Under the pieces are notes generated by a model that was given only the letters and a program-made list of their open reading frames with translations, ran no database searches and was not told the DNA's origin. Shown here piece by piece: positions 4,489 to 61,671 of a DNA stretch of 64,000 nt (positions are counted from its first letter, which is position 1; each line of letters begins with the position of its first letter). Source of the DNA: an uncultured Eubacteriales bacterium (GTDB lineage Bacteria > Bacillota > Clostridia > Christensenellales > Aristaeellaceae); assembly GCA_902764875.1 (NCBI GenBank), contig CACWXP010000014.1, positions 22,716 through 86,715 on the forward strand, given 5' to 3'. The translations under genes were made by a program, and so were the position numbers.

Positions 4489-4595
4489 ACTTTCATCCTC
4501 CTCTTTGCGGCAATCTTTATTTGGGTCAGACGTTTGTTCTTTTCAATGGAAATAATGATGCGTTTTCCGCATGAGAATCACCTGATCACACAAAC

Positions 4596-4624
4596 AGTAT
4601 AGCATATCGCCGCAAAATAGGAAA
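4596..4624 (-). promoter_or_regulatory. Possible promoter of the NusG-like gene
   Basis: A good -10 (TATACT, 4596-4601) on the minus strand has only a weak -35 (TTTCCT, 4619-4624) at 17 bases. The leader would be about 100 nt and includes a small ATGCG/CGCAT hairpin. Confidence 0.4.
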
Positions 4625-4716
4625 GACTCATTCTTTCAGTCTCTTGCGTTTTCTTCTCCGGGGGTATATCATGACTCGGGATTTTGATATCGTAATGCTG
4701 ATGCGCGGAGGGTTCT

Positions 4717-6419: not shown

Positions 6420-6465
6420 GATTCGCCGCTTCCCCAGGCCCGGAAGATCATGAAGAAAATTCCCG

Positions 6466-6512
6466 AATTTCTATTCTTCCGAATCTGCAGAAATTGTCTT
6501 TCCTATTTTTTT
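6466..6512 (+). terminator. Possible weak terminator after the ttcA-like gene
   Basis: AATTTCT and AGAAATT pair around an inner ATTC/GAAT hairpin, and a run of T follows at 6505-6512 after a short gap. The stem is AU-rich and the gap is unusual, so confidence is low. Confidence 0.35.
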
Positions 6513-6552
6513 GAGTTTGCCGTGTTTTTCTCTTTTTTTTCCACTGCCGACG

Positions 6553-6561
6553 TGGTATAAT
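6553..6561 (+). promoter_or_regulatory. Extended -10 promoter of xpaC-telA
   Basis: TGGTATAAT (6553-6561) is an extended -10. The region 17 bases upstream is T-rich with no clear -35. The start codon follows 33 bases later with AGGAGAG between. Confidence 0.6.
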
Positions 6562-6594
6562 AACTTGATTTGTTGATTCAAGGAGAGTTTTGCC

Positions 6595-7464: not shown

Positions 7465-7565
7465 CCCCGAAGCACTCAGGCCAATCCATCCGTTCATGAA
7501 TTTGGCATTCTGATTCATCAGCGGGTAATATCACAGGAACAGAACCCAAAAGGAGGAAGAAAACC

Positions 7566-8735: not shown

Positions 8736-8752
8736 TCATTTATGAATTCCCG

Positions 8753-8784
8753 CGGCCCGGCACAACCTGCGCCGGGCCGTTTTT
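8753..8784 (+). terminator. Rho-independent terminator after telA
   Basis: CGGCCCGGC and GCCGGGCCG form a nine-bp stem around a nine-base loop, followed by TTTTT. It lies between telA and the coaE-slt fusion gene. Confidence 0.85.
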
Positions 8785-8810
8785 CAAAACAGGAGGGTCA
8801 TCGGAAAAGC

Positions 8811-10316: not shown

Positions 10317-11811
10317 AATCGGCAACAGCATCACCATCGCGATCCAGTCTTCCAAAACGCTGATGGTCCGGCCTTTTGAGCCGGTGGAGTACGATATCAT
10401 CTCCGCCTATCACGCGGTCTACGAATCCCTGGTGGAGCTGGATGACGATTACCTTCCCCAGCCCTGCCTGGCCGAAAGCTGGGAGGAATCCGCCTCCGGA
10501 AAAACCTGGACCTTCCATCTCCGCGAGGATGTCCGTTTTTCAGACGGAACGCCCTTGACGGCCCGAGACGTGGTGGCTTCGGCGGAATATATCATCGCCA
10601 AGGCCAAGGATGAAAACATCGCGGATCACGGCTTTTATCAGAACCTGAACCGTTTTGTGGATTCCATCACCGCCAAGGATGATTACACCGTTGTGGTAAA
10701 GGCCGCAAATGGCCGCACCTATTACGGCCTGCTCTATCAGATGACGTTCCCGGTGGTCCCGGCAGCGCTGGTGGCGGAGGATAATCCGCCCGGTTCCGGC
10801 CCTTATGTCATCACCGAGTTCCACGCCGGCGAACGGATGTGGCTTTCCGCGAACACAAACTGGTGGAAAGCCCAGCCCCAGATCAAGGAAATCCTCTTCA
10901 CCTTTGAAAACACATCCTCGGCCGTTGTGGAAAGCTATGAATTTGCCCAGGTTGAAGCCTGTTTCACCCGTTCCGTAGCCGGCGCTCAGCATAAAACCGG
11001 CGCCAATTCCCTCACCATGTCCTATCGCACCAACCAGCTGGAATGCCTGTATATGAACAATAACGCCTCCGAGCTCACCCTCGAGGTTCGCCAGGCGATC
11101 CGCTGCCTGATCGACAAAAACAAACTCATCTCCACCGCCTATCTCAGCCTCGCGACACCGACCAATTTTCCTTTCTATCCCGGCACCTGGATGTACAATG
11201 ACAGCCTGGATTCCTCCTTCACCCTGGATGTGGAGGAAGCAAAGCGCCTTCTGGCCGAAGCCGGATGGGAGGACTCGGATGACAACGGCGTGCTGGACCG
11301 GGTGGATTCCAACGGCGATCTGAAGAACCTCCACCTGCGGTTCTATTATTATGAGGAGCCGGATAACGACGTCCGGGAGGAAGCCGCCAATATCATCTCG
11401 GCCGCCCTGGCCGAGGTTGGCATCGAGTGCAAAATCACCGCCATGACCCTGTCAGGCCTGCAGGAGCGCGTCAAAAGCGGCAGTTTCGACCTGGCCCTGA
11501 TCGCTTTCGCCATGGATACAACCCCCGATCCCGGCTTCATGCTCATGTCCGCCAATGTCAAAAGCGGAAACTACTGCCGGTATAAGAGCAGCAAAATGGA
11601 TGAGCTGTTCTCAAGCCTCCGGAAGGTCACTTCCCAGGAAGAGTACCGTCAGAAGCTGATGGACATCCAGTACCAGTTTTATCAGGACTGCCCCTTCGTC
11701 TGCCTGTATTTCCGAACCGGAAACGTCATCACCCGCTATATGTACACCGCCTGCCGGGATATCCGGGAGTACGAGCTGCTCCGCGGAATTGAATCCTTTT
11801 TTACACGCTGA
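10225..11811 (+). CDS. Family 5 ABC extracellular solute-binding protein (peptide-type)
   Basis: 528 residues. A Sec signal peptide (about 1-26, LLISFLLMLTLLLPLSPAKA) has no lipobox Cys. The mature protein shows family-5 blocks: AYHAVYESLVELDDDYLPQP, LAESWEESASGKTWTFHLR and VRFSDGTPLTARDVVAS, and later EAKRLLAEAGWEDSD. Such proteins usually bind oligopeptides or related ligands. The ATG at 10225 lies within the end of the previous gene in another frame (92-base overlap) with GGGAGGG upstream. No permease or ATPase genes accompany it in the window, so it is an orphan binding protein. Its neighbour is a transglycosylase, so muropeptides are a possible but unproven ligand. Confidence 0.85.
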   Translation: MGFIRRNTSLLISFLLMLTLLLPLSPAKAAEIGNSITIAIQSSKTLMVRPFEPVEYDIISAYHAVYESLVELDDDYLPQPCLAESWEESASGKTWTFHLREDVRFSDGTPLTARDVVASAEYIIAKAKDENIADHGFYQNLNRFVDSITAKDDYTVVVKAANGRTYYGLLYQMTFPVVPAALVAEDNPPGSGPYVITEFHAGERMWLSANTNWWKAQPQIKEILFTFENTSSAVVESYEFAQVEACFTRSVAGAQHKTGANSLTMSYRTNQLECLYMNNNASELTLEVRQAIRCLIDKNKLISTAYLSLATPTNFPFYPGTWMYNDSLDSSFTLDVEEAKRLLAEAGWEDSDDNGVLDRVDSNGDLKNLHLRFYYYEEPDNDVREEAANIISAALAEVGIECKITAMTLSGLQERVKSGSFDLALIAFAMDTTPDPGFMLMSANVKSGNYCRYKSSKMDELFSSLRKVTSQEEYRQKLMDIQYQFYQDCPFVCLYFRTGNVITRYMYTACRDIREYELLRGIESFFTR

Positions 11812-11901
11812 ACAATCCTATACCGCTGCTGTTCGCACCTGCATGCATAGTAACTGGAAAAAAACAGATGCGGCAATCGCACTGTTACGGAGGAATTGAC
11901 A

Positions 11902-12843
11902 ATGGACTGGATTGAACTGATTGTGCATACGACCACCGCCGGATCCGACTGGGTTTCCGATTGCCTGATGGAGCTCGGCGCCTCCGGCACCATGATTGAG
12001 GACAAGGCCGATATCCCCGATCCTTCCAAACCCCATGGCATCTGGGAAATCATCGATCCGAAGCTGTTGGAAACCATGCCGGAGGATGTGCTGGTCCACG
12101 CCTGGTTCGCGCCGGATGAAACCTTCCCGGGGATTTTGCAGCAGCTGAAGGAACACCTGGACGCCATGCGGCCGCAGCAGCCGCTCTACGGCGCCCTCGT
12201 CGCGGACACCCGCACCGTTTCCGAGGACGCCTGGGCCGAAGTCTGGAAAAAATACTACAAGCCTTTTTATGCCGGTCCCCATCTGGTGGTCAAGCCTACC
12301 TGGGAAGCCTTTGAACCTGCTCCCGGCGACCGGATCATCGAGATTGATCCCGGCATGGCCTTCGGCAGCGGCACCCATGAAACCACCGGCATGTGCATCA
12401 CCCTGCTGGAGGAAGTCATCAAAGGCGGCGAACGGATCATCGACGTGGGTACCGGCAGCGGCATTCTGGCCATCGCGGCCGCCCTTCTCGGCGCCGGACA
12501 GGTGCTGGCCGTGGATATCGATCCGGACGCGGTCCGCGTCGCGACGGAAAACGTGGCCCATAACCATGTGGACGGCGTGGTCACCGTTCAGGAAGGCGAC
12601 CTGCTGAAAAAAGTGAACGAAACCTGCGACATATGCGTCGCCAACATTATTTCCGATATTATTATTTCCTTCGCCGCACCCCTGAAGGAGCACATCGTCC
12701 CCGGCGGGCTCTTTATCTGCTCCGGCATCGTCCGGGAGCGCACGGAGGAAGTCCGCGAGGCGCTGCTGAAAGCCGGATTCGAAATTCTGAAAACGGAGCA
12801 CCGCGGCGAATGGACCGCCTTCCTTTCGAGGAGGAATGACTGA
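11902..12843 (+). CDS. prmA: Ribosomal protein L11 methyltransferase
   Basis: 313 residues from ATG 11902, with GGAGG eight bases upstream (a TTG at 11896 is less likely). The C-terminal class-I methyltransferase domain has GMAFGSGTHETT, then IIDVGTGSGILAIAA (SAM motif I) and VANIISDIIIS (motif IV). The N-terminal domain is the L11-recognition part (MDWIELIVHTT, ELGASGTMIED). It modifies L11 with S-adenosylmethionine. The stop overlaps the rsmE ATG (TGATG), starting a compact run of RNA and protein modification genes. Confidence 0.95.
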   Translation: MDWIELIVHTTTAGSDWVSDCLMELGASGTMIEDKADIPDPSKPHGIWEIIDPKLLETMPEDVLVHAWFAPDETFPGILQQLKEHLDAMRPQQPLYGALVADTRTVSEDAWAEVWKKYYKPFYAGPHLVVKPTWEAFEPAPGDRIIEIDPGMAFGSGTHETTGMCITLLEEVIKGGERIIDVGTGSGILAIAAALLGAGQVLAVDIDPDAVRVATENVAHNHVDGVVTVQEGDLLKKVNETCDICVANIISDIIISFAAPLKEHIVPGGLFICSGIVRERTEEVREALLKAGFEILKTEHRGEWTAFLSRRND

Positions 12844-13577
12844 TGCACCGTTTCTATGCGGATCCGGAAAAATCAGAAGGCGATGTTTTTGTCCTGACGC
12901 CGGAAGATACCCTTCACGCCGTGAAAGTCCTGCGGATGAAGGAGGGCGATCAGGCCGAAATCATTCTGAACGGAAACCGGTACAGTGCCCGGATCGCTGA
13001 GGCTTCGGATACGCTCGTAAAGCTCTTCCCCGAAAGCACTCTTCCCTCCACCGAACCCCGCTTGTCCGTTACCCTGTTCCAGGGGCTTCCGAAAGCAGAT
13101 AAGATGGACTGGATCGTCCAGAAATCGGTAGAGCTCGGCGTGGCCCGGATTGTGCCCGTCGCCTTTTCCCGCTGCGTGGTCCGGCTGAGTGAAAAGGACG
13201 GTGCCAAAAAGCAGGAACGCTGGCAGAAGATTGCCCGGGAGGCCGGCAAGCAGTCCGGCCGTTGTATCGTTCCCGAGGTGCTTCCGCCGGTGTCCCTCAA
13301 AAAACTGCCGGATCTGTTCGATGAATGCGAACAGGTCGCTGTTCCCTGGGAGGAATGTCCAAACCGTGGACCGCTGGCCTTCGCGAAAGAATATCCTCGT
13401 CTGCGTTCTCTGGGAATCGTGATCGGCCCGGAGGGCGGCATCGCTTCGGAGGAAATGGAGCAGCTGACGGCCTTCGGCGGAAAACCGATCACCCTCGGAA
13501 AGCGGATTCTTCGCACCGAAACCGCCGGCCTCGCGGCCCTCAGCGTTTTCTTCGGACTGTATGGGGAAATGGAGTAA
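12843..13577 (+). CDS. rsmE: 16S rRNA m3U1498 methyltransferase
   Basis: 244 residues. It methylates U1498 of 16S rRNA. The N-terminal PUA-like part begins MHRFYADPEK, followed by LHAVKVLRMKEGD. The SPOUT domain carries KADKMDWIVQKSVELGV and the knot motif GPEGGIASEEME with LGKRILRTETAGLAAL. It is one base-overlap coupled to prmA, the usual partner in Firmicutes, and is followed by mtaB after eight bases. Confidence 0.95.
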   Translation: MHRFYADPEKSEGDVFVLTPEDTLHAVKVLRMKEGDQAEIILNGNRYSARIAEASDTLVKLFPESTLPSTEPRLSVTLFQGLPKADKMDWIVQKSVELGVARIVPVAFSRCVVRLSEKDGAKKQERWQKIAREAGKQSGRCIVPEVLPPVSLKKLPDLFDECEQVAVPWEECPNRGPLAFAKEYPRLRSLGIVIGPEGGIASEEMEQLTAFGGKPITLGKRILRTETAGLAALSVFFGLYGEME

Positions 13578-13585
13578 GATCAAGT

Positions 13586-14884
13586 ATGCCGACCGTCGCT
13601 TATCACACCCTGGGCTGCAAAGTCAACCAGTATGATACCCAGGCCATGGAAGAGCTGCTTTCCGCCGCCGGATTTCCGACCGTCCCCTTTCCCGGCCCGG
13701 CCGATGTCTATCTGATCAATACCTGCACCGTCACCGGCACAGGAGATAAGAAAAGTCTGCAGCTGGCCCGGAAACTGAAGCGGGAACATCCGGACTGCAT
13801 CCTGATTCTCTGCGGCTGCCTGGCCCAGCTGAAGGGAGCAGCGCTGCTTTCCGCCGGCGCCGATCTGGTTCTCGGAACCCAGTTCCGCGGACAGATTGTG
13901 TCCCTGCTGCAGCAGGTGCTCTCTTCCGGAAAGCCCTTGTGCGCCGTGGAACCCCTTCCGGAAACCATGCCCTATGAATCGCTCCATGTGTCCGACTGTC
14001 AGGAGCACACCCGGGCCGTCCTGAAAATTCAGGAAGGCTGCCGCAACCGTTGTTCCTACTGCGTCATTCCCGATGTTCGCGGACCGATCCGTTCCCGGCC
14101 CCCGGAAGACATCGCCGCCGAGGCGAAACGCCTTGCCGCCGCCGGGTTCCGGGAAATTGTTCTGACCGGTATCCATCTTTCCTCCTGGGGAAAGGACTTC
14201 ACGCCCCGGCGTTCCCTGCTGGATGTGCTGAAAACCCTGGAAGAAACGAAGGGCGTTCTCCGGATCCGCCTCGGATCCCTGGAACCCGGCATCGCATCGG
14301 AGGATTTCATCGCCGCCCTCTCCGGATGCAAAAAGCTTTGCCCTCAGTTTCATCTGGCCCTCCAGTCCGGCAGTAATACTGTCCTGCGCCGGATGCGCAG
14401 GCAGTATACGGCCGAAGGATATCTGGAAGCCGTGGGGCGGCTGCGCGCTTTCTTCCCAATGGCGGCGATCACCACGGATATTCTGACCGGATTCCCCGGC
14501 GAAACGGAAGAGGAGTTTGCCGAAACCCGGGAGTTCATCCGGAAGGTCGGCTTCGCGAGGATTCATGTTTTCCCCTATTCACCCCGTCCCGGCACGCCGG
14601 CGGCGGATATGCCCGGCCAGCTGTCTGAATCCGTAAAGCAGGCCCGGGCCCGGGAGCTGATCGCCGTGGGCCGTGAAACCGCCCTCTGTTTCCAGCGCCG
14701 TTGGATCGGCCGGGAGACCGTTCTCTTGCCGGAAGAGCGGGTGGAAGGCTGCTGGGAAGGCTACTCGCCCGAATACCTGCGGATCCGCCTGCGGCGGGAG
14801 GATGTCTGTGTCTCCGGCGAACCGGTCCGCGTGCTGATTCAGTCTGTCTCTCCCCGTTTTCTCGGCGGAGCGATCATAAAATAA
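13586..14884 (+). CDS. mtaB: tRNA t6A37 methylthiotransferase
   Basis: 432 residues from ATG 13586. TLGCKVNQYDTQAME at the N-terminus is the MTTase domain start with the MtaB-type NQYD. The radical-SAM cluster ligands are in EGCRNRCSYCVIP at about residues 150-160, and a C-terminal TRAM-like region follows (RRWIGRETVLLPEE). MtaB adds a methylthio group to t6A37 in tRNAs reading ANN codons. The frame is open further upstream inside rsmE, but the family start and GGAG spacing support 13586. Confidence 0.93.
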   Translation: MPTVAYHTLGCKVNQYDTQAMEELLSAAGFPTVPFPGPADVYLINTCTVTGTGDKKSLQLARKLKREHPDCILILCGCLAQLKGAALLSAGADLVLGTQFRGQIVSLLQQVLSSGKPLCAVEPLPETMPYESLHVSDCQEHTRAVLKIQEGCRNRCSYCVIPDVRGPIRSRPPEDIAAEAKRLAAAGFREIVLTGIHLSSWGKDFTPRRSLLDVLKTLEETKGVLRIRLGSLEPGIASEDFIAALSGCKKLCPQFHLALQSGSNTVLRRMRRQYTAEGYLEAVGRLRAFFPMAAITTDILTGFPGETEEEFAETREFIRKVGFARIHVFPYSPRPGTPAADMPGQLSESVKQARARELIAVGRETALCFQRRWIGRETVLLPEERVEGCWEGYSPEYLRIRLRREDVCVSGEPVRVLIQSVSPRFLGGAIIK

Positions 14885-14905
14885 AAGAGTTTGGAGGAAT
14901 ACAAA

Positions 14906-15247
14906 ATGGAAAACTGTCTGTTCTGCAAAATCATTAAAGGCGAAATCCCTTCCGCAAAAGTGCTCGAAAACGATCAGGTCTATGCCTTCCGGGACATCAA
15001 TCCCCAGGCCCCGACCCACGTCCTGGTGGTTCCGAAAAAGCATGTCTCTTCCGTGGCGGAGATTGATCAGCTCTCCGACGCTGAAATCGCCGCCTGCCTG
15101 AAAGCGGTGAAGCAGATCGCGGCCGAAGAATCCCTTTCCGACGGTTTCCGGGTGGTTTCCAACTGCGGCCCGGATGCCTGTCAGTCCGTGCCTCACCTGC
15201 ATTTTCATATCCTCGGCGGCCGGAAAATGGGCGACCGGATGGCCTGA
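14906..15247 (+). CDS. HIT-family (HinT-type) nucleotide hydrolase
   Basis: 113 residues from ATG 14906, preceded by GGAGG. CLFCKIIKGEIPSAKV is the N-terminal block and HLHFHILGG the histidine triad; here the triad is in HLHFH. HinT-type proteins hydrolyse adenosine phosphoramidates and related nucleotides. It follows mtaB by 21 bases, a frequent Firmicute order with rpsU next. Confidence 0.93.
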   Translation: MENCLFCKIIKGEIPSAKVLENDQVYAFRDINPQAPTHVLVVPKKHVSSVAEIDQLSDAEIAACLKAVKQIAAEESLSDGFRVVSNCGPDACQSVPHLHFHILGGRKMGDRMA

Positions 15248-15270
15248 AAACCTGTTTTTTCCAAAAAACG

Positions 15271-15299
15271 TTGACTGATGGAACGAATCGCTGTATAAT
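15271..15299 (+). promoter_or_regulatory. rpsU promoter
   Basis: TTGACT (15271-15276), 17-base spacer, TATAAT (15294-15299). It lies after hinT and about 75 bases before the rpsU GTG, so rpsU can be made independently. Confidence 0.9.
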
Positions 15300-15373
15300 A
15301 CTTCCATGGTTTTGCCGTCCGTCCGTGTGGTGGGCTGCTGGCAAGGCGTGAATGAGCGAGGGGAGGGATAACA

Positions 15374-15547
15374 GTGTCCGAGGTTCGTATCCGCGAAAAT
15401 GAGTCCCTGGAAAGTGCGCTCAAACGGTTTAAGCGGCAGTGCGCCCGCAGTGGCGTTCTTCAGGAAGTTCGTAAACGCGAGCATTATGAAAAGCCCAGCG
15501 TGAAGCGCAAGAAAAAGGCCGAAGCCGCCCGTAAGCGCAAGTGGTAA
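15374..15547 (+). CDS. rpsU: 30S ribosomal protein S21
   Basis: 57 residues from GTG 15374 with GGGAGGG about seven bases upstream. The sequence [20 protein letters not shown] and the basic tail [18 protein letters not shown] are typical of S21, a small basic protein of the 30S platform. It has its own promoter and terminator. The 71-nt leader (about 15306-15373) shows no clear structure. Confidence 0.95.
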
Positions 15548-15563
15548 TTCATTTCGCACTTTT

Positions 15564-15592
15564 CCCTTCCCCACATCGGGAAGGGTTTTTTC
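15564..15592 (+). terminator. rpsU terminator
   Basis: CCCTTCCC and GGGAAGGG form an eight-bp stem around a short loop, followed by six T. Confidence 0.88.
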
Positions 15593-15636
15593 TTTCTTCC
15601 GTCGTTCAAATTCCCCGATTTGGGGTGCGCTTGCTG

Positions 15637-15665
15637 TTGCAAAACAACTTTCCTTTTGTTATAAT
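15637..15665 (+). promoter_or_regulatory. Promoter of the RNA methylase-rho unit
   Basis: TTGCAA (15637-15642), 17-base spacer, TATAAT (15660-15665), about 35 bases before the ATG at 15701. Confidence 0.8.
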
Positions 15666-15700
15666 GGTTGCAGTTCATGATCTGATGAAAAGAGGATGTC

Positions 15701-16717
15701 ATGGTTTATACGCTCGGTTTGGCGAAACACACAAATATCCGTTATCGCGATTCGGCCAATCGCTTAAGCCGTTGTGAACTCGTTTCCATGCTTCGCGCCC
15801 TTTCTCTGGATTGTGAAGTATCGCTCGAATCTTTCGGCGGTGCCGATTTTCTGACCTTTGAATCCCGTCCCCTCTCGGAAGATGAGCTTTCCTTTCTTTT
15901 CCGCCATTCCGCCGTTCGGTTTATGGCGGAAAAGCATGAGAATCTCCTCAGGCCCCTTTCTTTTCCCGAAGGAAATTATCTGGAGGAAGATCTGCCGGAG
16001 ATTCTGAAATATAAAGGGAAAACATCCGCTTCTTTCACACGGATGATGATCAATATCGCGCTTTCCCTTTCTTCCTTTGCCCGCAGCGATGCTCCACTTA
16101 CCCTGCTCGACCCGCTCTGCGGAAAGGGAACCGCCTGCTTCTGTGCCCTGCAGGCCGGCATGAATGCCGTCGGCATGGATCTGGACCAGAAAGCGGTCCG
16201 CGAGGCGGAGGATTATTTCGGCAAATACCTGAAGGTTCATATGCTCAAGCATTCGGTCCGTTCCTGGTCGGAAACCGCCGGAAAGTCTTCCCTTCCGGTG
16301 AAGGAATTCACCTTTGCCGATTCAAAGGAACACTATCAGCAGCAGGATACCCGTTTCCTCCGGCTTTCGGCGGGAGACACCGTCCTCGCCCCAATCCTCT
16401 GCCGGCGCCGGCCCGTCCATCTTCTGATTGCCGATCTCCCCTACGGCGTGCAGCATGCGCCCCAGTTCGGCCGCAGGCCGGAATCCTTCGGCGCCCTGCT
16501 CTCCCGCGCCCTTCCCGCGTGGAAAAAGGCGCTGATCCCCGGCGGCGTCGCGGCCGTCAGTTTCAACACGTTAACCCTCCCGACGCAGCAGGTCATCGAT
16601 CTGGCTGTCACGTCGGGATGGACGCCCTTTACGGGCGGCATCTTTTCCTCCCTGCGCCATGAAGTGGAGCAGGCGGTGGTCCGTGATGTTGTTTTTATGC
16701 AGAATGAAACCCTTTGA
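15701..16717 (+). CDS. Putative RNA methylase (UPF0020/Trm11-like)
   Basis: 338 residues. An N-terminal domain (about 1-110) is followed by a class-I methyltransferase with LLDPLCGKGTACFCAL (SAM motif I), AVGMDLDQKAV (motif II) and LLIADLPYGVQH, a DPPY-type catalytic motif (motif IV) as in N2-guanine methylases of RNA. This resembles the Trm11/THUMP-class enzymes, though a THUMP domain is not obvious. The ATG at 15701 has AGAGGA upstream. It shares a transcript with rho 17 bases later. The substrate is not determined. Confidence 0.68.
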   Translation: MVYTLGLAKHTNIRYRDSANRLSRCELVSMLRALSLDCEVSLESFGGADFLTFESRPLSEDELSFLFRHSAVRFMAEKHENLLRPLSFPEGNYLEEDLPEILKYKGKTSASFTRMMINIALSLSSFARSDAPLTLLDPLCGKGTACFCALQAGMNAVGMDLDQKAVREAEDYFGKYLKVHMLKHSVRSWSETAGKSSLPVKEFTFADSKEHYQQQDTRFLRLSAGDTVLAPILCRRRPVHLLIADLPYGVQHAPQFGRRPESFGALLSRALPAWKKALIPGGVAAVSFNTLTLPTQQVIDLAVTSGWTPFTGGIFSSLRHEVEQAVVRDVVFMQNETL

Positions 16718-52728: not shown

Positions 52729-54348
52729 TTATTCCGGCGGCAGCGGCGCTCCGCATACGTTGCAGGGTTTCAGCTTGCTGTAGGGTTCGTTCCCGATCTC
52801 GCCGTAGGTGAACTGTCCGCCCAGGGGCAGGAACTTCGGGTTGATAATCTTGCAGTACTGGTCCAGGTGATAGTATTCGCCGCCGCTCGGATTATAGTAA
52901 AGCACCGTGCTGGCGAAGACTGTGGGCGTCTCGGTGGGCCCTGGCGTCGGCGTGACGTTCGGATCCGGCGTTTCCATGGATTCATAGGTCTGCAGGCTTT
53001 GCGGATCGATGTACCAGTCGCCGCCTTCCTTCACCATCATAATGGTCATCCGGTATTTCTCGTCCGGTTTCCCGTTGTTTCGGTTCATCGTGGAGGTTAC
53101 CGTCACCTTGCGGGTGGTGTCCGCCGTTGTGCCGGAAATGCTCTCCGGCGTGCAGTCCTTCGGCGTCCGGTTGGCCAAAAGGGCAAACAGGCTCGTCCGC
53201 GGGTTCTCCTCTTTCGCCTGCCAGCTCGGCAGGCAGAGGGCCAGCATTTCGTCCTGCCGGTTTCCGGCCCAGTAGGTAAAGAAGGAAACCAGCCGTTCCA
53301 TCAGCGAACTGTCCACGCTGTTTTCCGGTTCCGGCGTTGTTTCCAGCGCCGTGGTAAAGCCGCTCTCGGGAATCTCCGGTACGCCGCTTTCCCCGCCCGT
53401 GCCGTTCAGGGTGTCGTCGTCTGAAACCACGGCCGGGTCCGTTCCGTTTTTGGTCGTATCCGCGTTCGGGTTGATCAGGAAGCTCACCGCCGTCAGCACG
53501 CATAAAGCCAGCGCAAGAATGGAATAGGTCAGCCGCCTGTTCTCCGCCGTCAGGGGTTTGATCCAAAGCAGCCCGGCGCTGCCCGCGGCAAGAATCATCA
53601 GCGCAATCTTCAGCGGCACGCTTTTCAGAATCAGCACCGCCGCGACAAACAGCCCGATCAGCACCGCTCCGGCCGCGATCAGGTACCAGTCCCGGAATTC
53701 AAATCCACGTTTTTTAACGGGAACCCGCTGCGGAACGTATCCGCCCCCGTTCAGGGGGATCTCGTTCTGAACCGGTCCCTGAGGCGGCCGGCCCATCTGG
53801 CTGTAGGGGTTATATCCGCCCATGTAGCCGCCCGGCTGCTGTCCGCCGCCCTGGGGCGCGTATCCGCCCAGGGATGTTCCCTGGGGAATCTGGTATCCCC
53901 CCGGCATGCTCTGCGTGCCGCCCGGATAGTAGCCCCCCGCCGGATTCTGATAGTTTCCCATCGGGGGCTGATAGCCGCCCTGCGGGGCAAATCCGCTCTG
54001 GGAAGGAACGTTTCCCGTCGGCATGGTGTATCCGTTCTGGGGTCCGAAGCTGCCCTGCCCCGTGTATCCCGTCTGCTGCGGCGTGTATCCGGTCGGCTGG
54101 GGCGGCTGATAATCCGGGCTCTGGTATCCCGGGCTGTAGGGGGTCTGGGGAATATAGCTCCCGGTGCCCGCCTGCCGCGGCTGATAGTCCGGCCCCGCGT
54201 ATCCCGGGTAGTATCCGCCCTGCGGCGCCGTGTATCCGGGAACGCCCTGTCCCTGTCCGCCCTGCGGCGCCGTGTATCCGGGAACGCCCTGTCCCTGTCC
54301 GCTCTGCGGCATCGTATATCCGGTCTTTCCCGGTCCGTATCCTTGCAT
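52729..54348 (-). CDS. Gly/Gln/Pro-rich membrane protein with C-terminal zinc-site-like motif
   Basis: 539 residues from ATG 54348 (AAGGGAAAG upstream; the frame is open to 54393). Residues about 1-215 are a repetitive Gln/Gly/Pro/Tyr-rich region (YTAPQGGQGQGVPG repeated). Three membrane helices follow at about 225-290 (WYLIAAGAVLIGLFVAAVLIL; KIALMILAAGSAGLLW; YSILALALCVLTAVSFL). An extracellular domain of about 165 residues (about 325-490, TYWAGNRQDEMLALCLPSWQ) resembles stalk or NTF2-like folds by eye only. The end, EYYHLDQYCKI with KLKPCNVCGA, places one His and three Cys like a small zinc site. First gene of a tilS-hpt-ftsH-vanW run. Confidence 0.65.
   Translation of the reverse strand: MQGYGPGKTGYTMPQSGQGQGVPGYTAPQGGQGQGVPGYTAPQGGYYPGYAGPDYQPRQAGTGSYIPQTPYSPGYQSPDYQPPQPTGYTPQQTGYTGQGSFGPQNGYTMPTGNVPSQSGFAPQGGYQPPMGNYQNPAGGYYPGGTQSMPGGYQIPQGTSLGGYAPQGGGQQPGGYMGGYNPYSQMGRPPQGPVQNEIPLNGGGYVPQRVPVKKRGFEFRDWYLIAAGAVLIGLFVAAVLILKSVPLKIALMILAAGSAGLLWIKPLTAENRRLTYSILALALCVLTAVSFLINPNADTTKNGTDPAVVSDDDTLNGTGGESGVPEIPESGFTTALETTPEPENSVDSSLMERLVSFFTYWAGNRQDEMLALCLPSWQAKEENPRTSLFALLANRTPKDCTPESISGTTADTTRKVTVTSTMNRNNGKPDEKYRMTIMMVKEGGDWYIDPQSLQTYESMETPDPNVTPTPGPTETPTVFASTVLYYNPSGGEYYHLDQYCKIINPKFLPLGGQFTYGEIGNEPYSKLKPCNVCGAPLPPE
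54218..54301 (-). repeat. 42-bp tandem repeat, two perfect copies
   Basis: Units at 54218-54259 and 54260-54301 are identical; a degenerate third follows to about 54323. Each encodes 14 residues (GQGQGVPGYTAPQG frame) of the low-complexity N-terminus of the membrane protein gene. Confidence 0.92.
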
Positions 54349-54483
54349 GCTCACTTTCCCTTTCCGCCGTCTCCGGCGTGGTCCCTTGCCCACCCGAAAG
54401 ATGGGGCAGGCTAATGATAAATTTTATCATTTTATGACAATTTTGTAAACCTTTTTGTTTCTATGTCCGCAGCTTTCCCTTCA

Positions 54484-54512
54484 TTGACGATTTCTCCGCA
54501 ATATGCTAAAAT
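54484..54512 (+). promoter_or_regulatory. Promoter of the nucleotidyltransferase-giant ATPase operon
   Basis: TTGACG (54484-54489), 17-base spacer, TAAAAT (54507-54512); AAGGAGA precedes the ATG at 54552. Confidence 0.82.
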
Positions 54513-54551
54513 TTGCCTGAATCTTAACATCCGAAGGAGACTGATTTTTCG

Positions 54552-55457
54552 ATGAATACAACGCTTCTGATCATGGCAGCCGGACTGGGATCCCGCTACG
54601 GCGGAAATAAACAGGTGGACCGCATCGGCCCCAACGGTGAAATCTTAATGGAGTATTCCATCCACGACGCTGTCGAAGCCGGTTTCGACAAGGTGGTTTT
54701 CGTCATCCGCAAGAGTATGGACGCCATGTTCCGCGAGGTCATCGGCGACAAGATCGCCAAAAAGGTCGAGGTCGCCTATGCCTATCAGGAATATGATTCC
54801 CTGCCCGGCGGTTTCGTTCCCCCGCCCGAGCGTACAAAGCCCTACGGAACGGTCCACGCCGTCATGTGCGCAAAGGATCTCATCCACGAGCCCTTTGCCG
54901 TCATCAATGCCGACGATTATTACGGCAAGGATGCCTTCCGCGCCATGGCCGAATCCCTGAAGCGCCTGCGGACTGCGGAGAACAGCGCTTCCATGGTGGC
55001 CTATTATCTGAAAAACACGGTTTCCAAAAACGGCCATGTCACCCGCGGCGTCTGCACAACGGATGAATCCGGCCATCTCGTCAAAGTGACGGAGACCTTC
55101 AGCATCCTTCCTTTCCCGGACGGAACGATCCGCGATATCCACGACAATCCCGACGGCGTCATTCTCGATCCCGACGCCCTGGTTTCCATGAATCTGTGGG
55201 GCTTCGCGCCCTCCTTCTTCGATGCCGGCACAGCCTATCTGGATGCCTTCCTGAAGGATCCCTCCGGTGATCCTCTCAAGAAGGAATGCCTCCTGCCTGC
55301 CCTGGTGGATCATCTGATGCACACCGCCGGGCTCAAGGTCGAGGTGCTTTCCACAAAAGCCGTCTGGTTCGGCGTCACCTACAAGGAGGACAAGGACTAT
55401 GTTGCCGGAGAGCTCAGAAAACTCCATGAAAACGGGAGTTACCCCCCTGCCCTGTAA
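54552..55457 (+). CDS. Sugar-phosphate nucleotidyltransferase family protein
   Basis: 301 residues. LLIMAAGLGSRYGGNKQVDRIGP is the nucleotide-binding start of the NTP-transferase family; FAVINADDYYGKDAF holds the metal-binding Asp pair; the Lys in PYGTVHAV and STKAVWFGVTYKEDKDYV near the end are typical of the fold. The substrate is not clear; there is no sugar pathway gene next to it. It overlaps the next gene by 59 bases, so it is co-translated with the giant protein. Confidence 0.8.
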   Translation: MNTTLLIMAAGLGSRYGGNKQVDRIGPNGEILMEYSIHDAVEAGFDKVVFVIRKSMDAMFREVIGDKIAKKVEVAYAYQEYDSLPGGFVPPPERTKPYGTVHAVMCAKDLIHEPFAVINADDYYGKDAFRAMAESLKRLRTAENSASMVAYYLKNTVSKNGHVTRGVCTTDESGHLVKVTETFSILPFPDGTIRDIHDNPDGVILDPDALVSMNLWGFAPSFFDAGTAYLDAFLKDPSGDPLKKECLLPALVDHLMHTAGLKVEVLSTKAVWFGVTYKEDKDYVAGELRKLHENGSYPPAL

Positions 55458-58400
55458 TCTCCTTGCCGTCGGCGATGCCGCCGCCCGTTCGCTGCCTCTC
55501 GTTTTAACGGCTCTTTCCTGCGGCGCGGCGCGGCCGGTGTCTTCCCTGTCCGTCTTTGCGCTTTGCCCGGGGTCTTCCGTTTCCAGCCGACCGGATTTTT
55601 CGGAAATCGAAAGCCTTGCTTCCTCTTTTTCCGCTGCTTCCCGTCTGCTGAAGGGTTCCGGATCCCCGGCGCTGTTTCCGGCTGAAATCTCTTTTCAGTC
55701 CGCCGTTCCCGTCTTTCGCGATCTCAGGTCCGCTTCGGCGGATGCAAATACCTCTCTGCTCTTTGACGCGCTGCGCGGCAAAGGGCTTCCTTTTTCTTTC
55801 CGGTCCGATCCGGAGGTGGTGCAGTGGTCTTTCGCCGATCTGCTGTCCCGCCCGGAGGATCCTTCCGTGGCCCCGCTGTTCTCCTGGCTTTCCGGCCTTG
55901 AAAACGCCGAAATTTCCGAAGGCGGAAAACCGCGCCTCGCGGTCCTGGCGGATCCGGCCGATCCCTTTGCCGCCGGCTGCCTGCTGGCCCTTCTGCCCAT
56001 CCTTCAATCCTTTTCTTTTGATGTTTCGCTCCTCGCCCTGGCCGAAACTGCCTCCCCCCTGCCGGATTTGTTTTTCCCGACGCTGTCCGCGTCTCTCCGT
56101 TTCCTGGAGGATCTTCCGCTCCCTGTGTGGCTGCTTTCCCTGCCTTCCTCCATGGCAACCGATCCCTCGGCCCACGGGGTAACCTTCCTTGCCCTGGCAA
56201 GGGTGCTGCCAACCCTCTCCGAAAAATCAGACCCCGGTCTGTATACGCTGGAAACCGACGGCACCCTGTCCCTGGCCTCCCTCCGGGAGCAGGCGACCTC
56301 TTTTGCCGCTTTTTTGCGCGCCGCCGCCTGGATGGTGTCGGATCTGATTCCTTCCATCCGCCAGTACCTTTCTCATCCTGCCCGCCTCCGGTCCCTGACC
56401 GTCAATCCCCGCACCGGTCTTTTCCGTATGCTTTTCCCCTCCGGCCGAACGGATCAGGCGGCCGACCTTGAGGATCTGTCAACCCTCGATTCCGCGCTGC
56501 GCGCCGTCATTGCTCAGGTGCTTTCCTTCCTGCGCGGCGTGCCCTCCGCCCTCCGCCCTTCCGGTGAAAACGCCTCTCTCTGGCAGCAGGCGGTCAACGC
56601 CTGCGGCCGGTATATCACCGTGGCTTCCGAATATGACACTTCCGCGGCCGAGGCAGCGGAATCCGGTCTGGATTCCGTTCGCCCCGTCCACCGCGTTTCC
56701 ATGGCGGATACGGAAGAGGAGCAGCTCGTCCGCCGCCTGCAGGAGATGAAGGCCCAGCTGGAGTCCGAGTCCGCCGCCCTGGAGGGGACGCTCTCCTCCC
56801 TCGGCGGTTACCGCGCCCTCCAGGTGCGCCTGGACTGCTATTTCCGCTGCCGCGATGCCCTGGTAAAGGCCCGGGAGGATGCCGCCGCCCCGCGGGACGG
56901 CCTGGACAATCTGTCCATTCTCCGGCGGGAGCGCCGGGTCCGCCTGCTGGAGGCGGCCGTCGCCCGCTGCCGCGAGGATCTCCATTCCTCCTCGGTCCAG
57001 GCGGCGCTTTCCCTTCCGCCCTCCGGCGCTTCCGCTCCCGGGGATCCGTACGCCTTCTCCGTGCTCTCGCCGGAAGCCTGCCGCGCGCTGGAATCGCTGC
57101 TGGCCGCCTCCGGTGAAGAAACCGGCCTGAAAATACCGCCCCTCTTCTCGAATCTCACCGAGCCGGATCCCAAGGTCCGTGCCAAAGCACTGGCGGCTGC
57201 CTGCGGCTCCGAAAACGCATCCGTCGGCGCCCTTCGCCCGGTGCCCTTCCTTTTTGCCCGTGCCTTCAGTGTCTGCCTGGAAGAGCTGGCCGCCGTGCGT
57301 TTCCTGCCGTCGTCCCTGATGCCCGCCGTTCCCCTCCTGCCGGATCTGATTGCGGACGAGCCCCTGCGCTCTGTCGGGGATGTGCTTTCCCGCCTTCCCG
57401 TTCCGGCCCTGACCGGCCGGGAAACCGCGGAGCAGCGCGGCCTGCTGGCCCTGCTCCTTCTCCGCCCCTATCGCCGGCGCCTATCCGCCGAGGCGTCCCT
57501 TTCCTCCGTCTGCTGCCTTCCCGCCGATTCACCGGCAATGGCCTGCTGGCTTTCTTCCCGCCGGGCTGAAAAGGCTTATATTCTTTCTCTTGAAAAGGAA
57601 GATCTCTCCCTGCCCTTCGCCCTGGTGCTTCCCGGCCGGCTTTTCCTGCCGGCCCGGCGTGTCGCTGCCCACAGGGATCTGGTGCCCGCCTTCGCCTCCT
57701 GGTATGACCCGGAGACCGATGCTTTCAAGGACCCGACCCCGTATCTCGGCGAAAGCGACCGCAAGCTCCTGACGGAGCGCCTGACTGTGCTCCGAAAGGA
57801 ACTGAACCCGAACGAGCAAAACGACGACCCCGAAACCAAACTCAATAGCCCGGAGGAGCAAAGCGACGACCCGAATTCCCTGACCCCTGAAGCCGATCCC
57901 CTGAACCCTCTCCAAAGCCTCATCGAAGGCTTCCTGAAAGACCTGACCTCATCCGCGGACGACGACGAGCCCCCCGCAGATCCCTCTCTGGAAACCCGTC
58001 TCCGGGCCGTCTTCGGTCTCTCCGCCCTTTCTGCCTACGAACCGTATCTGGCGAAGGAAACCTGTTTCTTCGAGCGTGTTCTTTCCTCCGATCCGGTGGC
58101 CGCCTGCCTCCTGGGACGTGAGTCTTTCCCGGCCTCCTCCTGTTCGGACATCCCGGAAGACGTTCTCTGGTTCTATCGCGGTGTTCCCTTCGCCCGGGAG
58201 GATTCCCGTCTTCTGCTTTCGTCCCCCCTCTCTCCCGGCGAGGATTTTGCCCTCTCCCGGCTCCGGGCGGAGTGCGACGTCCTTTCGGAGTCCTCCGATG
58301 ATTTCCGCGATGCCCTGCTGAAAAACCTCGGCTCCCTGCCGGAGCGGTTCCCCGCTGCCCTGCCCCTCCCGCTGAAGGCGGTCTCTTCGCTGCTGAAGGA

Positions 58401-60714
58401 TGCCTCCCGGCCCCTGGAGGGAAAGGAGCCTGTCTTCCTCTGGCCCTGGGATGAAAAATCCCCCTCGGTCCATACTGTTCTGCATGAAAGCCTGGGTTCC
58501 GCGCTTTCCGCCGCCGCCCTGCATCCCTTCTCCGAATGTCTCACGGTTTTCCCCGCCCGCGGGCGTGAAATCATCGGGGATTCCCTCCTCTCCGAAATGT
58601 GCACCGTTCTCCCTTGTCAGGAAGCTCCCGAAGGGGCCGAAATCGTTCCGGACGCGGTGCTGCCGCCCCTCTCTCCTGCCTTTGGCGAAGCCCTGTGCCT
58701 CCTGCCCGAGGGGCGCACCCTGCTGAAGGCCGGTCTGCTGTCCTTCGAGCGTTTTCGCGAGGAAACCTCCGGCTTTGCGCGTGATGTTTCGGATTCCTTC
58801 CGCGTCACCCTGACCCTCGACGGCGCCTTCCCCGTGCATCTTGTCCGGGTTTACGCCGCTGAAGAAGTTTTCCATCTCTATGCCCACGATATCCCGACGC
58901 TGGCCCTTTGGCCCTCCGTACCCTTCCGGCCCGAAGACTGGCACGCCTATTATCTCTATGCCCATCTTTCGTCTTCCTGGTCCGCCTCCGCCCTCTCGGT
59001 AAACGGTGCCTGGACCGGTCTTTCCGAAACCTCCGAAAGCCGCTGCGTCGCGGCCCTGGAATCCTATCCGGCCGCCGTCTCCCTCCTTGCGGATGGAAAA
59101 ACCGCCGGCTTCCTGCCCAATGTCCTGCCCCCGCCGCTCATCGCGCCTTCGGATCCCGTGCGGGTCTGCGTGGACTTCGGCTCTTCCGGAACGTCGGTCA
59201 TATTTTCTTCCGGCGCTGCCCGCCGTCCCATGCACGGTCCCGTCATGGTGCGCACACTGCTGAACAATCCCGCCGCTTCCCGTGATCTGCTCCGGCGGGA
59301 GTTCCTTCCGGCCGTGCCGGTGTCAGCCCTGCTGCCGACGGTATCCCGACTTTTCCGGAATGTACCCGGCGCCTCGCCGGTTCCCTTTGCCGACGGCATC
59401 GTCCTCATGTCCGCGGATCTCGAGGATCTGCTTTCAACGCCCTCCGACGCGATTTATACCTCCCTCCGCTGGGAGGAGGAAAAAGGCCGCTCCGGCTTCC
59501 TCTGTCTTCATCAGGTGCTTCTCATGGCCGCGCTCCAGGCCCGCTTTGAAGGTGCTTCCGCCCTCTCCTGGCGGTTCTCCCTTCCGGATGAAATGGCGAA
59601 GGACGGCCGCGAATCCCTCATGAATCTCTTCCTCTCCCTTTCCGACGCGGTTCTCCGGGAAAGCGGTTATCCTCTCTCTGTCGGCGATCCTCCCGTTCCG
59701 CCCGTCTCCTTTGCTTCCGATTCTGCGGCCCTCGGGGCTTATTTCCGCTTCTGTGCCGCGGAGGATACCCGCGGAGGCTTTATGGTGCTGGATCTCGGCT
59801 CCTGCACGGCGGATATCTCCCTTTTCCTCCGCGGCCGGGAGCAGGCTGTCCGAACCTGCCAGCTCCCCCTGGGCGTCCATTATATGCTCCTGCCCGCCCT
59901 CCTGCGGGATCCGGAGCTTCTCGCCCGTGATTTCGGTTTCTGTCCGGATGAACGCTTTCTCCGGGATCTCTCCCTGCTTTCCCGGGCCCTTTCCGATGCC
60001 CGAACCGACCCCGTGGCCCTGCGCCGTGCCCGCGTCGCGCTGGATTTCTTTGTTGCGGATTATCTTCCCCTCCTTGTATCCCTCGCGTGCCAGCTGGCCT
60101 CCGGCGGCTGGGCCTCCCGTTCCGGGGCGCTCATCCTGCTGCATCTCGCTTTCCTGCTGATGCTTTCAGGCCTCGTTCTGCTCCAGATCGCCGCCGATCC
60201 CTCCCGCAACGATTTCCTTCCCGATCGCATGTCCCTCTGCCTGTCCGGCCGCGGCGCGTCGATTCTGGAGTCCCTGCCCCCGCCCCTCCGCAATGCCCTC
60301 TGGCATTTTCTCACCATGTTCCGCAATCGTCGGGTCGCTTCCCTGTCTCTCCTTTTCTCTGCCGAAAAGAAGATGGAAATCCCCGTCGGCCTCTCTCTTT
60401 TGAATGAAGTTTCCGCCGCTTTGCCTCCTGCCTCTGCCGTGCCGGCGTCCATCGCCGTGCGGCCCGCGGATCTTCTGCCGGAGTTTCTGCTCCGCTTCCG
60501 TTCCGCCTTCCCCGCTTCCGCGGAGCTGCTTTTCCCCGGTTTCTTCACCGGCATCCCCGCCTACCCCTTCTCGGATCGCGGTCGTGCCCTCCTCGCCGCT
60601 TCCATTGACCAGTCCTTCCCCGCGGGCCGCACCGATCTGTCGGAGGGAACCTCCCCCCGACCCTACGATTCCCTGGCCGCCTGGCTCGGCAATATCCTCG
60701 ACCTGAACCTATAG
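55399..60714 (+). CDS. 1771-residue protein with C-terminal Hsp70/actin-type ATPase signature
   Basis: ATG 55399 has AGGAGG nine bases upstream and lies inside the previous gene. The C-terminal third has the three nucleotide-binding motifs of actin/Hsp70 folds: VRVCVDFGSSGTSV (phosphate 1, 1255-1266), GGFMVLDLGSCTADISLF (phosphate 2, 1459-1476) and CLSGRGAS (adenosine, 1614-1621). The N-terminus (1-300) alternates beta strands and helices like a Rossmann or tubulin-like fold (PRLAVLADPADPFAAG at 178-193) without the tubulin GGTG loop. About 435-530 is coiled coil; about 795-860 is an acidic linker; about 1575-1597 is very hydrophobic. I know no close family; SrfB-type actin-like proteins are the nearest recollection. 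It is Ala/Leu/Ser/Pro-rich. Role unknown. Confidence 0.72.
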   Translation: MLPESSENSMKTGVTPLPCNLLAVGDAAARSLPLVLTALSCGAARPVSSLSVFALCPGSSVSSRPDFSEIESLASSFSAASRLLKGSGSPALFPAEISFQSAVPVFRDLRSASADANTSLLFDALRGKGLPFSFRSDPEVVQWSFADLLSRPEDPSVAPLFSWLSGLENAEISEGGKPRLAVLADPADPFAAGCLLALLPILQSFSFDVSLLALAETASPLPDLFFPTLSASLRFLEDLPLPVWLLSLPSSMATDPSAHGVTFLALARVLPTLSEKSDPGLYTLETDGTLSLASLREQATSFAAFLRAAAWMVSDLIPSIRQYLSHPARLRSLTVNPRTGLFRMLFPSGRTDQAADLEDLSTLDSALRAVIAQVLSFLRGVPSALRPSGENASLWQQAVNACGRYITVASEYDTSAAEAAESGLDSVRPVHRVSMADTEEEQLVRRLQEMKAQLESESAALEGTLSSLGGYRALQVRLDCYFRCRDALVKAREDAAAPRDGLDNLSILRRERRVRLLEAAVARCREDLHSSSVQAALSLPPSGASAPGDPYAFSVLSPEACRALESLLAASGEETGLKIPPLFSNLTEPDPKVRAKALAAACGSENASVGALRPVPFLFARAFSVCLEELAAVRFLPSSLMPAVPLLPDLIADEPLRSVGDVLSRLPVPALTGRETAEQRGLLALLLLRPYRRRLSAEASLSSVCCLPADSPAMACWLSSRRAEKAYILSLEKEDLSLPFALVLPGRLFLPARRVAAHRDLVPAFASWYDPETDAFKDPTPYLGESDRKLLTERLTVLRKELNPNEQNDDPETKLNSPEEQSDDPNSLTPEADPLNPLQSLIEGFLKDLTSSADDDEPPADPSLETRLRAVFGLSALSAYEPYLAKETCFFERVLSSDPVAACLLGRESFPASSCSDIPEDVLWFYRGVPFAREDSRLLLSSPLSPGEDFALSRLRAECDVLSESSDDFRDALLKNLGSLPERFPAALPLPLKAVSSLLKDASRPLEGKEPVFLWPWDEKSPSVHTVLHESLGSALSAAALHPFSECLTVFPARGREIIGDSLLSEMCTVLPCQEAPEGAEIVPDAVLPPLSPAFGEALCLLPEGRTLLKAGLLSFERFREETSGFARDVSDSFRVTLTLDGAFPVHLVRVYAAEEVFHLYAHDIPTLALWPSVPFRPEDWHAYYLYAHLSSSWSASALSVNGAWTGLSETSESRCVAALESYPAAVSLLADGKTAGFLPNVLPPPLIAPSDPVRVCVDFGSSGTSVIFSSGAARRPMHGPVMVRTLLNNPAASRDLLRREFLPAVPVSALLPTVSRLFRNVPGASPVPFADGIVLMSADLEDLLSTPSDAIYTSLRWEEEKGRSGFLCLHQVLLMAALQARFEGASALSWRFSLPDEMAKDGRESLMNLFLSLSDAVLRESGYPLSVGDPPVPPVSFASDSAALGAYFRFCAAEDTRGGFMVLDLGSCTADISLFLRGREQAVRTCQLPLGVHYMLLPALLRDPELLARDFGFCPDERFLRDLSLLSRALSDARTDPVALRRARVALDFFVADYLPLLVSLACQLASGGWASRSGALILLHLAFLLMLSGLVLLQIAADPSRNDFLPDRMSLCLSGRGASILESLPPPLRNALWHFLTMFRNRRVASLSLLFSAEKKMEIPVGLSLLNEVSAALPPASAVPASIAVRPADLLPEFLLRFRSAFPASAELLFPGFFTGIPAYPFSDRGRALLAASIDQSFPAGRTDLSEGTSPRPYDSLAAWLGNILDLNL

Positions 60715-60755
60715 GGACGGTTCTTTTCGGTTCATTTTGAATCAGGACCTATAGG
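60707..60755. mobile_element. Possible remnant element flanked by ACCTATAGG direct repeats
   Basis: ACCTATAGG occurs at 60707-60715 (containing the stop codon of the giant gene) and again at 60747-60755, with 31 bases between them that begin GACGGTTCTTTT. GGGACGGTTCT is recalled as an end sequence of dispersed palindromic elements in Firmicutes; only one arm is present. The repeats look like a target duplication. Confidence 0.35.
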
Positions 60756-60849
60756 TGAAGGAGCAGGTGGCTCCATTCGTTGGCTCCGGATTTCCCAAAA
60801 AAGTTTTCTGAAGCCGAACAATCAAGTAAAAAAGGAGCTCCAAGAAATC

Positions 60850-61671
60850 ATGGAAACCATAACCTCGCCTAAGAACCCGAAAGTCCTCGCCTGGCGCGCC
60901 CTCCAGACCCATAAAGGCCGCGAAGAACAGCAGGCCTTTCTGGTGGAAGGTCTGCGGATGGTCCGCGAAGCCCTGGACTCTGATTTCGCGCTCCGGGCGA
61001 TTCTCCTGCGGGAGGGGGTTGAACCTGCCTTCGCTCTGCCGGCCGGCGTCCCCGTCTTCGTCCTCTCTGACCGGGTTTTCGCCGCCGTTTCGGAAACGAA
61101 AACGCCCCAGGGCGTTGCCGCCGTGCTTTCCCGCCGCATCCGCCCCCTTTCCGGTTCCCGCTTTGTCGCCCTCGACGCCGTGCAGGATCCCGGCAATGTC
61201 GGAACGATCATCCGCACCGCGGATGCCGCCGGTTTTGACGGTGTCCTCCTGGGCCCGGAGTGTGCCGATCTTTTTTCTTCGAAAGTACTCCGTTCAACCA
61301 TGGGCAGCATTTTCCGTCTGTCCTTCGCCTTTCCGGAAGATCTTTCCGCCGACCTGAGAACGCTCCGTTCCCGCGGTTTCTCCGTTCTCTCTTCCCAGCT
61401 CGACGGAGAGCCCTTCTACAGCCGCGAAGAAATCCCCGCGCCCTTCGTACTGATCGTCGGCAATGAGGGCAACGGCATCTCCGCTCCCGTAAAGGCCGAA
61501 GCCACCCACCGCTTCCGTCTTCCCATGCGCGGCGGCGCCGAATCCCTGAATGCGGCCGTGGCCGCGGGGATCATGATGTATGACCTGATGAAGCATCCGG
61601 ATCAATCCCGCTGTACGCCGCATACTTCTCCCCGACGGTCTTCAGTTCCGACCGTGCTTCCTCATACGTAA
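60850..61671 (+). CDS. TrmH/SpoU-family rRNA methyltransferase, altered C-terminus
   Basis: 273 residues. An N-terminal L30e-like part (ITSPKNPKVLAWRALQTHKG) is followed by a SPOUT domain with LDAVQDPGNVGTIIRTADA (motif 1), VLIVGNEGNGIS (motif 2) and LPMRGGAESLNAAVAAGIMMYDLM (motif 3), so a 2'-O-ribose methylase of rRNA is likely. In this family the protein normally ends a few residues after motif 3; here about 22 extra residues (PDQSRCTPHTSPRR and on) are read from DNA complementary to the phage portal gene. The 3' end is therefore probably changed by the phage junction. The core is intact. AAGGAG precedes the ATG. Confidence 0.86.
   Translation: METITSPKNPKVLAWRALQTHKGREEQQAFLVEGLRMVREALDSDFALRAILLREGVEPAFALPAGVPVFVLSDRVFAAVSETKTPQGVAAVLSRRIRPLSGSRFVALDAVQDPGNVGTIIRTADAAGFDGVLLGPECADLFSSKVLRSTMGSIFRLSFAFPEDLSADLRTLRSRGFSVLSSQLDGEPFYSREEIPAPFVLIVGNEGNGISAPVKAEATHRFRLPMRGGAESLNAAVAAGIMMYDLMKHPDQSRCTPHTSPRRSSVPTVLPHT

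Follow-up and report, generated by a model that had tools for sequence, protein, structure and literature searches.

A Clostridial gene predicted to join a tubulin-like module and an Hsp70/actin-type ATPase in one chain

The fused gene and its split relatives

The DNA analysed here is a 64,000-nucleotide stretch (the window) of contig CACWXP010000014.1, from an uncultured Eubacteriales bacterium of the family Aristaeellaceae (assembly GCA_902764875.1). Its main subject is a plus-strand gene (55399-60714), a single open frame of 1771 codons whose product (P0001) is predicted to combine a tubulin-like N half with a C half ending in an Hsp70/actin-type ATPase domain. The 1771-residue frame had been reported in a first-pass annotation of this DNA and is confirmed as a real gene. 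Scanning named genomes yielded 31 loci, with titles naming a Clostridia, Clostridiales or, once, Lachnospiraceae bacterium and rumen or gut names frequent; 28 of them carry full-length single frames, and the other three (L069, L074 and L082) are cut at contig ends. Of 25 genus genomes examined, 21 have an orthologue; this sample overlaps with the named loci. Two of these copies (G013 and G024) end at contig edges, and the four genomes without an orthologue are 60-79% complete. Mean column identity across the aligned genus sequences (n=19) was 53%. In seven pairs, the ratio of nonsynonymous to synonymous substitution rates (dN/dS) lay at 0.11-0.35 in the N half and at 0.08-0.23 in the C half; four of the pairs had dS above 1, and the ratios there are therefore rough. 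These values indicate that purifying selection acts on the N and C halves alike. Because of the full-length frames in the named loci and the dN/dS of 0.08-0.35 over both halves, the possibility that the frame is a shadow of a minus-strand gene was rejected.

A strong ribosome-binding site had been proposed for the gene, and a Shine-Dalgarno-like AAGGAGG (55383-55389, plus strand) indeed ends 9 bases ahead of the ATG. It should be noted that most orthologues start near residue 17 of the window protein, and that M10 (base 55426) is an alternative start. The window protein matched nothing in Pfam or NCBIfam at E<=10 and nothing in PADLOC at E<=1; the PDB sequences gave a single chance match (E 1.9), and viral contigs gave none. 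PF13809 was likewise absent from all 31 close relatives examined. Membership in SrfB was rejected, as no such Pfam family was matched at E<=10 by the window protein or at E<=1 by 21 relatives.

Outside the genus, the protein is encoded by two genes. Searching the class with the genus profile gave a match in one of 391 genomes, the window's own. A family-wide search matched 58 of 200 genomes, in nine of 50 genera; 11 of the 58 belong to the window's genus. From the 47 family matches outside the genus we fetched 20 loci, covering six of the eight other genera, and in every one of them two neighbouring same-strand genes encode the protein. The upstream (N) gene has 529-715 codons and the downstream (C) gene about 1040-1410 (longest frame), with a 4-base overlap between them in seven of the 20 loci; for L130, the first profile did not detect the N gene, which a second profile recovered. 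Gene maps of these loci were drawn by simply taking the longest frames and contain some shadows. The frame at L147:6529-7647 also looks like a wrong one. The remaining 27 family matches are known from the search table alone, with internal stops in G536, G576 and G429. The copy in G536 (C17:7086-12257) is fused and has one internal TGA, by assembly error or decay; the same two causes may apply to the split tubulin-like gene of L172, which is spread over two frames (11246-12696). The split pair was also found in L145-L147, from one other family of the same order, and in L172 and L173, from two other families of the class, where three of 291 genomes matched, including the window's own. In another genome of the order (L148), the C gene lies at a contig edge.

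A quick tree (LG+G4) was built from 50 C halves with L145-L147 as the root, and in it the 29 fused rows formed one side of a branch with a Shimodaira-Hasegawa-like approximate likelihood ratio test value of 100. This suggests one fusion event as the simplest reading. Alignment of the split N ends and split C starts with the genus profile places the joint approximately at residues 630-648 (57286-57342, plus strand).

The two halves of the protein

The N half (residues 17-645; 55447-57333, plus strand) corresponds to the upstream gene of the other genera and appears to consist of a tubulin-like domain and a coiled coil. An AlphaFold model of residues 10-645, in which model residue 1 is protein residue 10, was built from 50 sequences and reached a mean predicted local distance difference test score (pLDDT) of 90.8 and a predicted template modelling score (pTM) of 0.91. 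Strands and helices alternate in the model up to about residue 283, as proposed for the N-terminal region, and the coiled coil noted at about 435-530 agrees with long predicted helices following the tubulin-type domain at 439-527 (56713-56979, plus strand). In a Foldseek search, TubZ was the top match (best E 0.02), accompanied by numerous chains of CetZ, FtsZ and tubulin, most of them with a probability of 0.85-1.00. The place of the tubulin T1 loop is taken by LAVGDAAARSLP (55462-55497, plus strand), and that of the T4 GTP loop by a degenerate ADPADPFAAG (55948-55977, plus strand), where intact relatives have GGTGASG.

The split relatives carry much of the evidence for this half. The N genes of several genera have a starting loop such as IGGTGNK together with a sequence such as CGSIFGGTGASG, which in our reading correspond to loops T1 and T4 (named as in PMC2875224). 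Nine of 20 split relatives (alignment A2) matched Tubulin_2 at E<=1 (best 1.6e-6), and nine of the 20 matched PF00091 at the same threshold (best 4.4e-5); some other split N proteins that were scanned gave individual tubulin-family matches under the curated Pfam cut-offs. The window's own N half matched no Tubulin_2 family profile. Profile comparison with hhalign aligned 12 intact-loop N genes with four genuine Clostridial Tubulin_2 proteins at 88.9% (E 2.4e-6), both loops included, and all 50 N halves with the same proteins at 44.9% (E 2.2e-4); the fused N half and the split N genes matched at 99.8%. Control comparisons gave 0.3% for the N profile against DnaK and 0.2% for the C profile against Tubulin_2. 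When the N profile was searched against PDB sequences, the matches were weak, one of them a CetZ at E 0.3. Fifteen of 25 split genes (L119, L120, L122-L127, L129, L130, L145-L147, L172 and L173) have the GGTG loop; the other ten (L114-L118, L121, L128 and L131-L133) lack it, as do all 30 fused rows, the window's included. The state of the loop on the tree requires two changes. On the basis of the split relatives and structure prediction, the N half is a probable member of the tubulin superfamily, of the Tubulin_2/FtsZl1 type. The earlier suggestion of a tubulin-like N part with a missing GTP loop is thus supported, through the relatives more than through the window's own sequence. A separate canonical FtsZ-type gene is kept, with one Tubulin-family match per genome in 21 genomes.

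The C half (residues 641-1771; 57319-60711, plus strand), again a separate gene in other genera, has about 600 residues followed by the predicted ATPase domain. Its AlphaFold model (residues 641-1771, 50 sequences) had a pLDDT of 88.9 and a pTM of 0.77, and Foldseek returned 637 PDB matches at E<=0.001, the best 50 of which are by title Hsp70/DnaK, actins, actin-related and actin-like proteins, and EutJ. Because the C part is predicted to have an actin/Hsp70 ATPase fold, the doubt raised beforehand, that no actin-like fold might be found around residues 1250-1700, does not hold. The motifs named in the first-pass annotation (VCVDFGSSGTS, VLDLGSCTADIS and CLSGRGAS) are all present and follow the expected order of phosphate-1 (VCVDFGSSGTSV; 59164-59199), phosphate-2 (FMVLDLGSCTADIS; 59779-59820) and adenosine (LCLSGRGASIL; 60235-60267) motifs, all on the plus strand. 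Across 19 genus sequences D1259, G1261, D1465, G1467 and G1617-R1618-G1619 are invariant, and they lie on or at the end of model strands at residues 1254-1260, 1460-1466 and 1610-1616 (614-620, 820-826 and 970-976 of the model). The ATP motifs are retained in 29 fused rows (alignment A5); the phosphate-1 aspartate is E in two split rows, L121 and L128. By hhalign, nine outer split C genes matched DnaK at 82.8% (E 9.3e-6), and the fused C halves matched the split C genes at 100%. A PDB sequence search with the C profile gave one unrelated match (E 0.022). These results support the prediction that the C half ends in an Hsp70/actin-type ATPase domain.

Hsp70 proper was considered and rejected: neither the window protein nor 21 relatives matched PF00012, the PF00012 matches of the window's genome sit elsewhere, and there is no C-terminal substrate-binding domain, the modelled chain ending about 80 residues beyond the last strands and helices of the ATPase domain, with helices only. 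An acidic linker had also been described; it is present, with low model confidence at about 808-834, and turns out to be an insertion (residues 800-834; 57796-57900, plus strand) peculiar to the window protein among the 19.

Operons of outer relatives and the neighbourhood in the genus

Outer relatives encode a lipoprotein-like protein, then a small membrane protein, then the split pair. This order was recognized by sequence in L119, L123, L124, L127, L129 and L130, weakly in L145 and L146, and by position plus alignment in L147, L172 and L173; the small membrane protein is encoded, for example, at 5417-6058 of L124 and 3548-4159 of L130. A vWA-like D-x-[S/T]-x-S motif, similar to the metal site of vWA domains, occurs in the lipoproteins of L145, L146, L147 and L173, is degenerate in L123, L124, L127, L129 and L130, and is absent in L172. 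Because no Pfam family matched the lipoproteins scanned, the vWA reading is a lead. The first-pass annotation had pictured a self-contained system, which may fit the window's genus, but the pair belongs to a longer, membrane-linked operon in the outer relatives.

Further genes accompany some of these pairs. The L173 locus (2263-16372) encodes in order the lipoprotein, the small membrane protein, the tubulin-like and Hsp70-like proteins, a coiled-coil membrane protein, a ZorA-like protein (PADLOC E 2.9e-11), a ZorB-like protein (E 4.9e-19) and a 1133-amino-acid protein, so that the Zor-like genes start two genes downstream of the pair; a link between Zorya-type motors and tubulin/Hsp70-like pairs is possible. 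On the 3' side of the pair, L145 (10448-16755) and L147 (2402-6511) have a membrane/coiled-coil protein and a Sel1-repeat/NPCBM protein of about 1400 amino acids, and L145 also has a zinc carboxypeptidase.

In the window, the upstream neighbour of the fused gene is a sugar-nucleotidyltransferase gene (54552-55457, plus strand). The two genes overlap as noted before, by 59 or 32 bases because the start is uncertain. One promoter for both had been proposed, and a promoter-like plus-strand site (54484-54512) precedes the nucleotidyltransferase gene; a scan of 54350-60900 on both strands gave two promoter-like sites, with 0.7 expected. Among the 30 fused loci, a nucleotidyltransferase gene lies upstream in 20, at <=100 bases in seven and across a gap of 1-1.6 kb in 13; it was not found in ten, three of which have less than 4 kb of upstream sequence. 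The gap holds a frame of 338-359 amino acids, which by eye, from three printed examples, we take to resemble UDP-glucose epimerase. The proposed partnership of the two genes did not survive this comparison across genomes: with spacing and presence so inconstant it was rejected, and the nucleotidyltransferase appears to be a neighbour outside the system, not a conserved partner. The gene on the other side encodes a SpoU methylase; it comes after the fusion in 49 of 51 genus loci (overlapping samples) and was matched in four of 20 split loci.

Other features of the window were also recorded. A phage portal protein gene (PF06381; 61571-63145, minus strand) indicates that a prophage seems to start directly after the SpoU methylase gene. 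A 554-amino-acid frame (52729-54393, minus strand), which has a high content of Gly, Gln and Pro, hydrophobic stretches and no Pfam match, adjoins TilS, phosphoribosyltransferase and FtsH genes and has matches in 29 of the 51 genus loci.

Interpretation and comparison with known systems

On balance, we favour the explanation that two neighbouring Clostridial genes fused to give a tubulin-fold/coiled-coil module that would be switched by ATP. The upstream ancestral gene would have encoded a Tubulin_2/FtsZl1-type protein with a coiled coil, and the downstream one a large protein ending in an Hsp70/actin-type ATPase domain. Judging from the outer relatives, the pair was probably part of a membrane-linked operon, preceded by genes for a small membrane protein and for a lipoprotein that bears a vWA-like motif. 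In the window's lineage, the lipoprotein and membrane genes would have left the locus, the GTP loop would have been lost and the genes joined once, as the tree suggests, in one order or another. By binding and hydrolysing ATP, the C-terminal domain may then switch the shape or assembly of the tubulin-fold and coiled-coil module, and the outcome would be a cytoplasmic ATP-driven scaffold or chaperone-like machine whose tubulin-fold module no longer uses GTP. A bolder form of this idea, that fusion replaced the nucleotide switch of the tubulin fold by an Hsp70/actin-fold ATP switch and gave ATP-driven assemblies of tubulin-type subunits, is put forward tentatively, and we consider it somewhat doubtful.

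Several results weigh against the favoured explanation. In the fold search with the N model, none of 1143 matches reached E<=0.001, TM-scores were low, and unrelated folds were interspersed within the first 50 matches. With hhalign, the fused N half alone gave 0.1% against both Tubulin_2 and FtsZ, and the fused C half alone gave 4.0% against DnaK. Against FtsZ of the genus the intact-loop genes gave 0.9%, where the positive control, Tubulin_2, itself gave only 23.9%. The roughly 600 residues ahead of the ATPase domain have no assignment, and the quickly built tree has long branches and an uneven letter make-up, about which the program issued a warning.

Among the alternatives, the best surviving one shares the same history but sees the N half as a passive docking or dimerisation remnant of a decayed tubulin, with the ATPase doing all the work and no larger assembly formed. 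The loss of the GTP loop in all 30 fused rows fits such a remnant, as does the faster evolution of N than C in the six more diverged of the seven pairs; but the N half is kept whole under the selection described above and has a confident fold model, and the pairing with the ATPase is retained in every fetched split locus, which makes a merely passive role rather unlikely. It is improbable that the protein is a reduced, fused member of an envelope-linked conflict or defence machine like the proposed GTPase-centred tubulin systems. The published proposals on tubulin/HSP70 systems (PMC7159879), the Zor-like genes of L173, and the vWA-like lipoprotein and membrane proteins of the outer operons speak for it. 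Against it, PADLOC families at E<=1 matched neither the window protein nor the tested split pairs, except that one N protein had chance coiled-coil matches, and the gene keeps a fixed place before the SpoU gene and occurs in most genomes of the genus. Defence genes are typically patchy in distribution, unlike the fused gene. Finally, a joint role with the nucleotidyltransferase in sugar-nucleotide or surface-glycan metabolism, suggested by the overlapping genes, the promoter-like site and the frequent upstream position, is highly improbable given the inconstant spacing and a nucleotidyltransferase match in only two of 20 split loci.

If the fusion of a tubulin-type and an ATPase gene is read correctly, two main nucleotide-switched cytoskeletal folds, tubulin-type and actin/Hsp70-type, are here predicted in one chain; we know of no other protein with both. 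Living relatives represent intermediate states, from intact-loop pairs in a membrane-linked operon through lost-loop pairs to the fusion, and the idea that the ATP cycle of a partner might drive a tubulin fold is now open to direct test. Our data also define a tubulin-like/Hsp70-like gene pair in Clostridia, whose Hsp70-like half rises above no family cut-off in the searched libraries.

The C half shares the ATPase-domain fold and the phosphate and adenosine motifs with Hsp70/DnaK and actins; it differs from Hsp70/DnaK in lacking a PF00012 match and a substrate-binding domain after the ATPase domain and in the long region before it. In the FtsA-FtsZ pair, actin-fold and tubulin-fold proteins cooperate as separate proteins with an active GTPase, whereas the genomes studied here retain their own FtsZ besides the fused protein. 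The likeness to Zorya (ZorA/ZorB, PADLOC models) lies in the genes 3' of the split pair in L173; these were seen in one genome and are missing from the window's locus. Among the entries listed in searches of the open-licence literature for tubulin-actin or tubulin-Hsp70 fusions or pairs, nothing was found beyond PMC2875224 and PMC7159879. In the latter, tubulin and HSP70 components of GTPase-centred conflict systems appear as non-overlapping themes. Those systems, also in Firmicutes, have tubulin with a coiled coil, HSP70-type and vWA components too, but here the tubulin-like and Hsp70-like genes adjoin or fuse, and no GTPase family, and hence no GTPase component as in GAP1-N2, was found in the subset of neighbour proteins scanned. 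A close parallel is FtsZl1, which according to Makarova and Koonin (2010; PMC2875224) has a tubulin-type domain, a coiled coil and a helical end and lies in operons that also encode vWA and OmpA-type proteins, GTPases and kinases. The protein described here resembles FtsZl1/Tubulin_2 (PF13809) in having a coiled coil after its predicted tubulin-type domain at the N terminus; both the T1 and the T4 loop are retained in its outer relatives, which lie near a lipoprotein with a vWA-like motif and once near an OmpA-type protein, in operons resembling those of FtsZl1. It differs in that the fused copies have no GTP loop and in that the constant partner is an Hsp70/actin-type ATPase.

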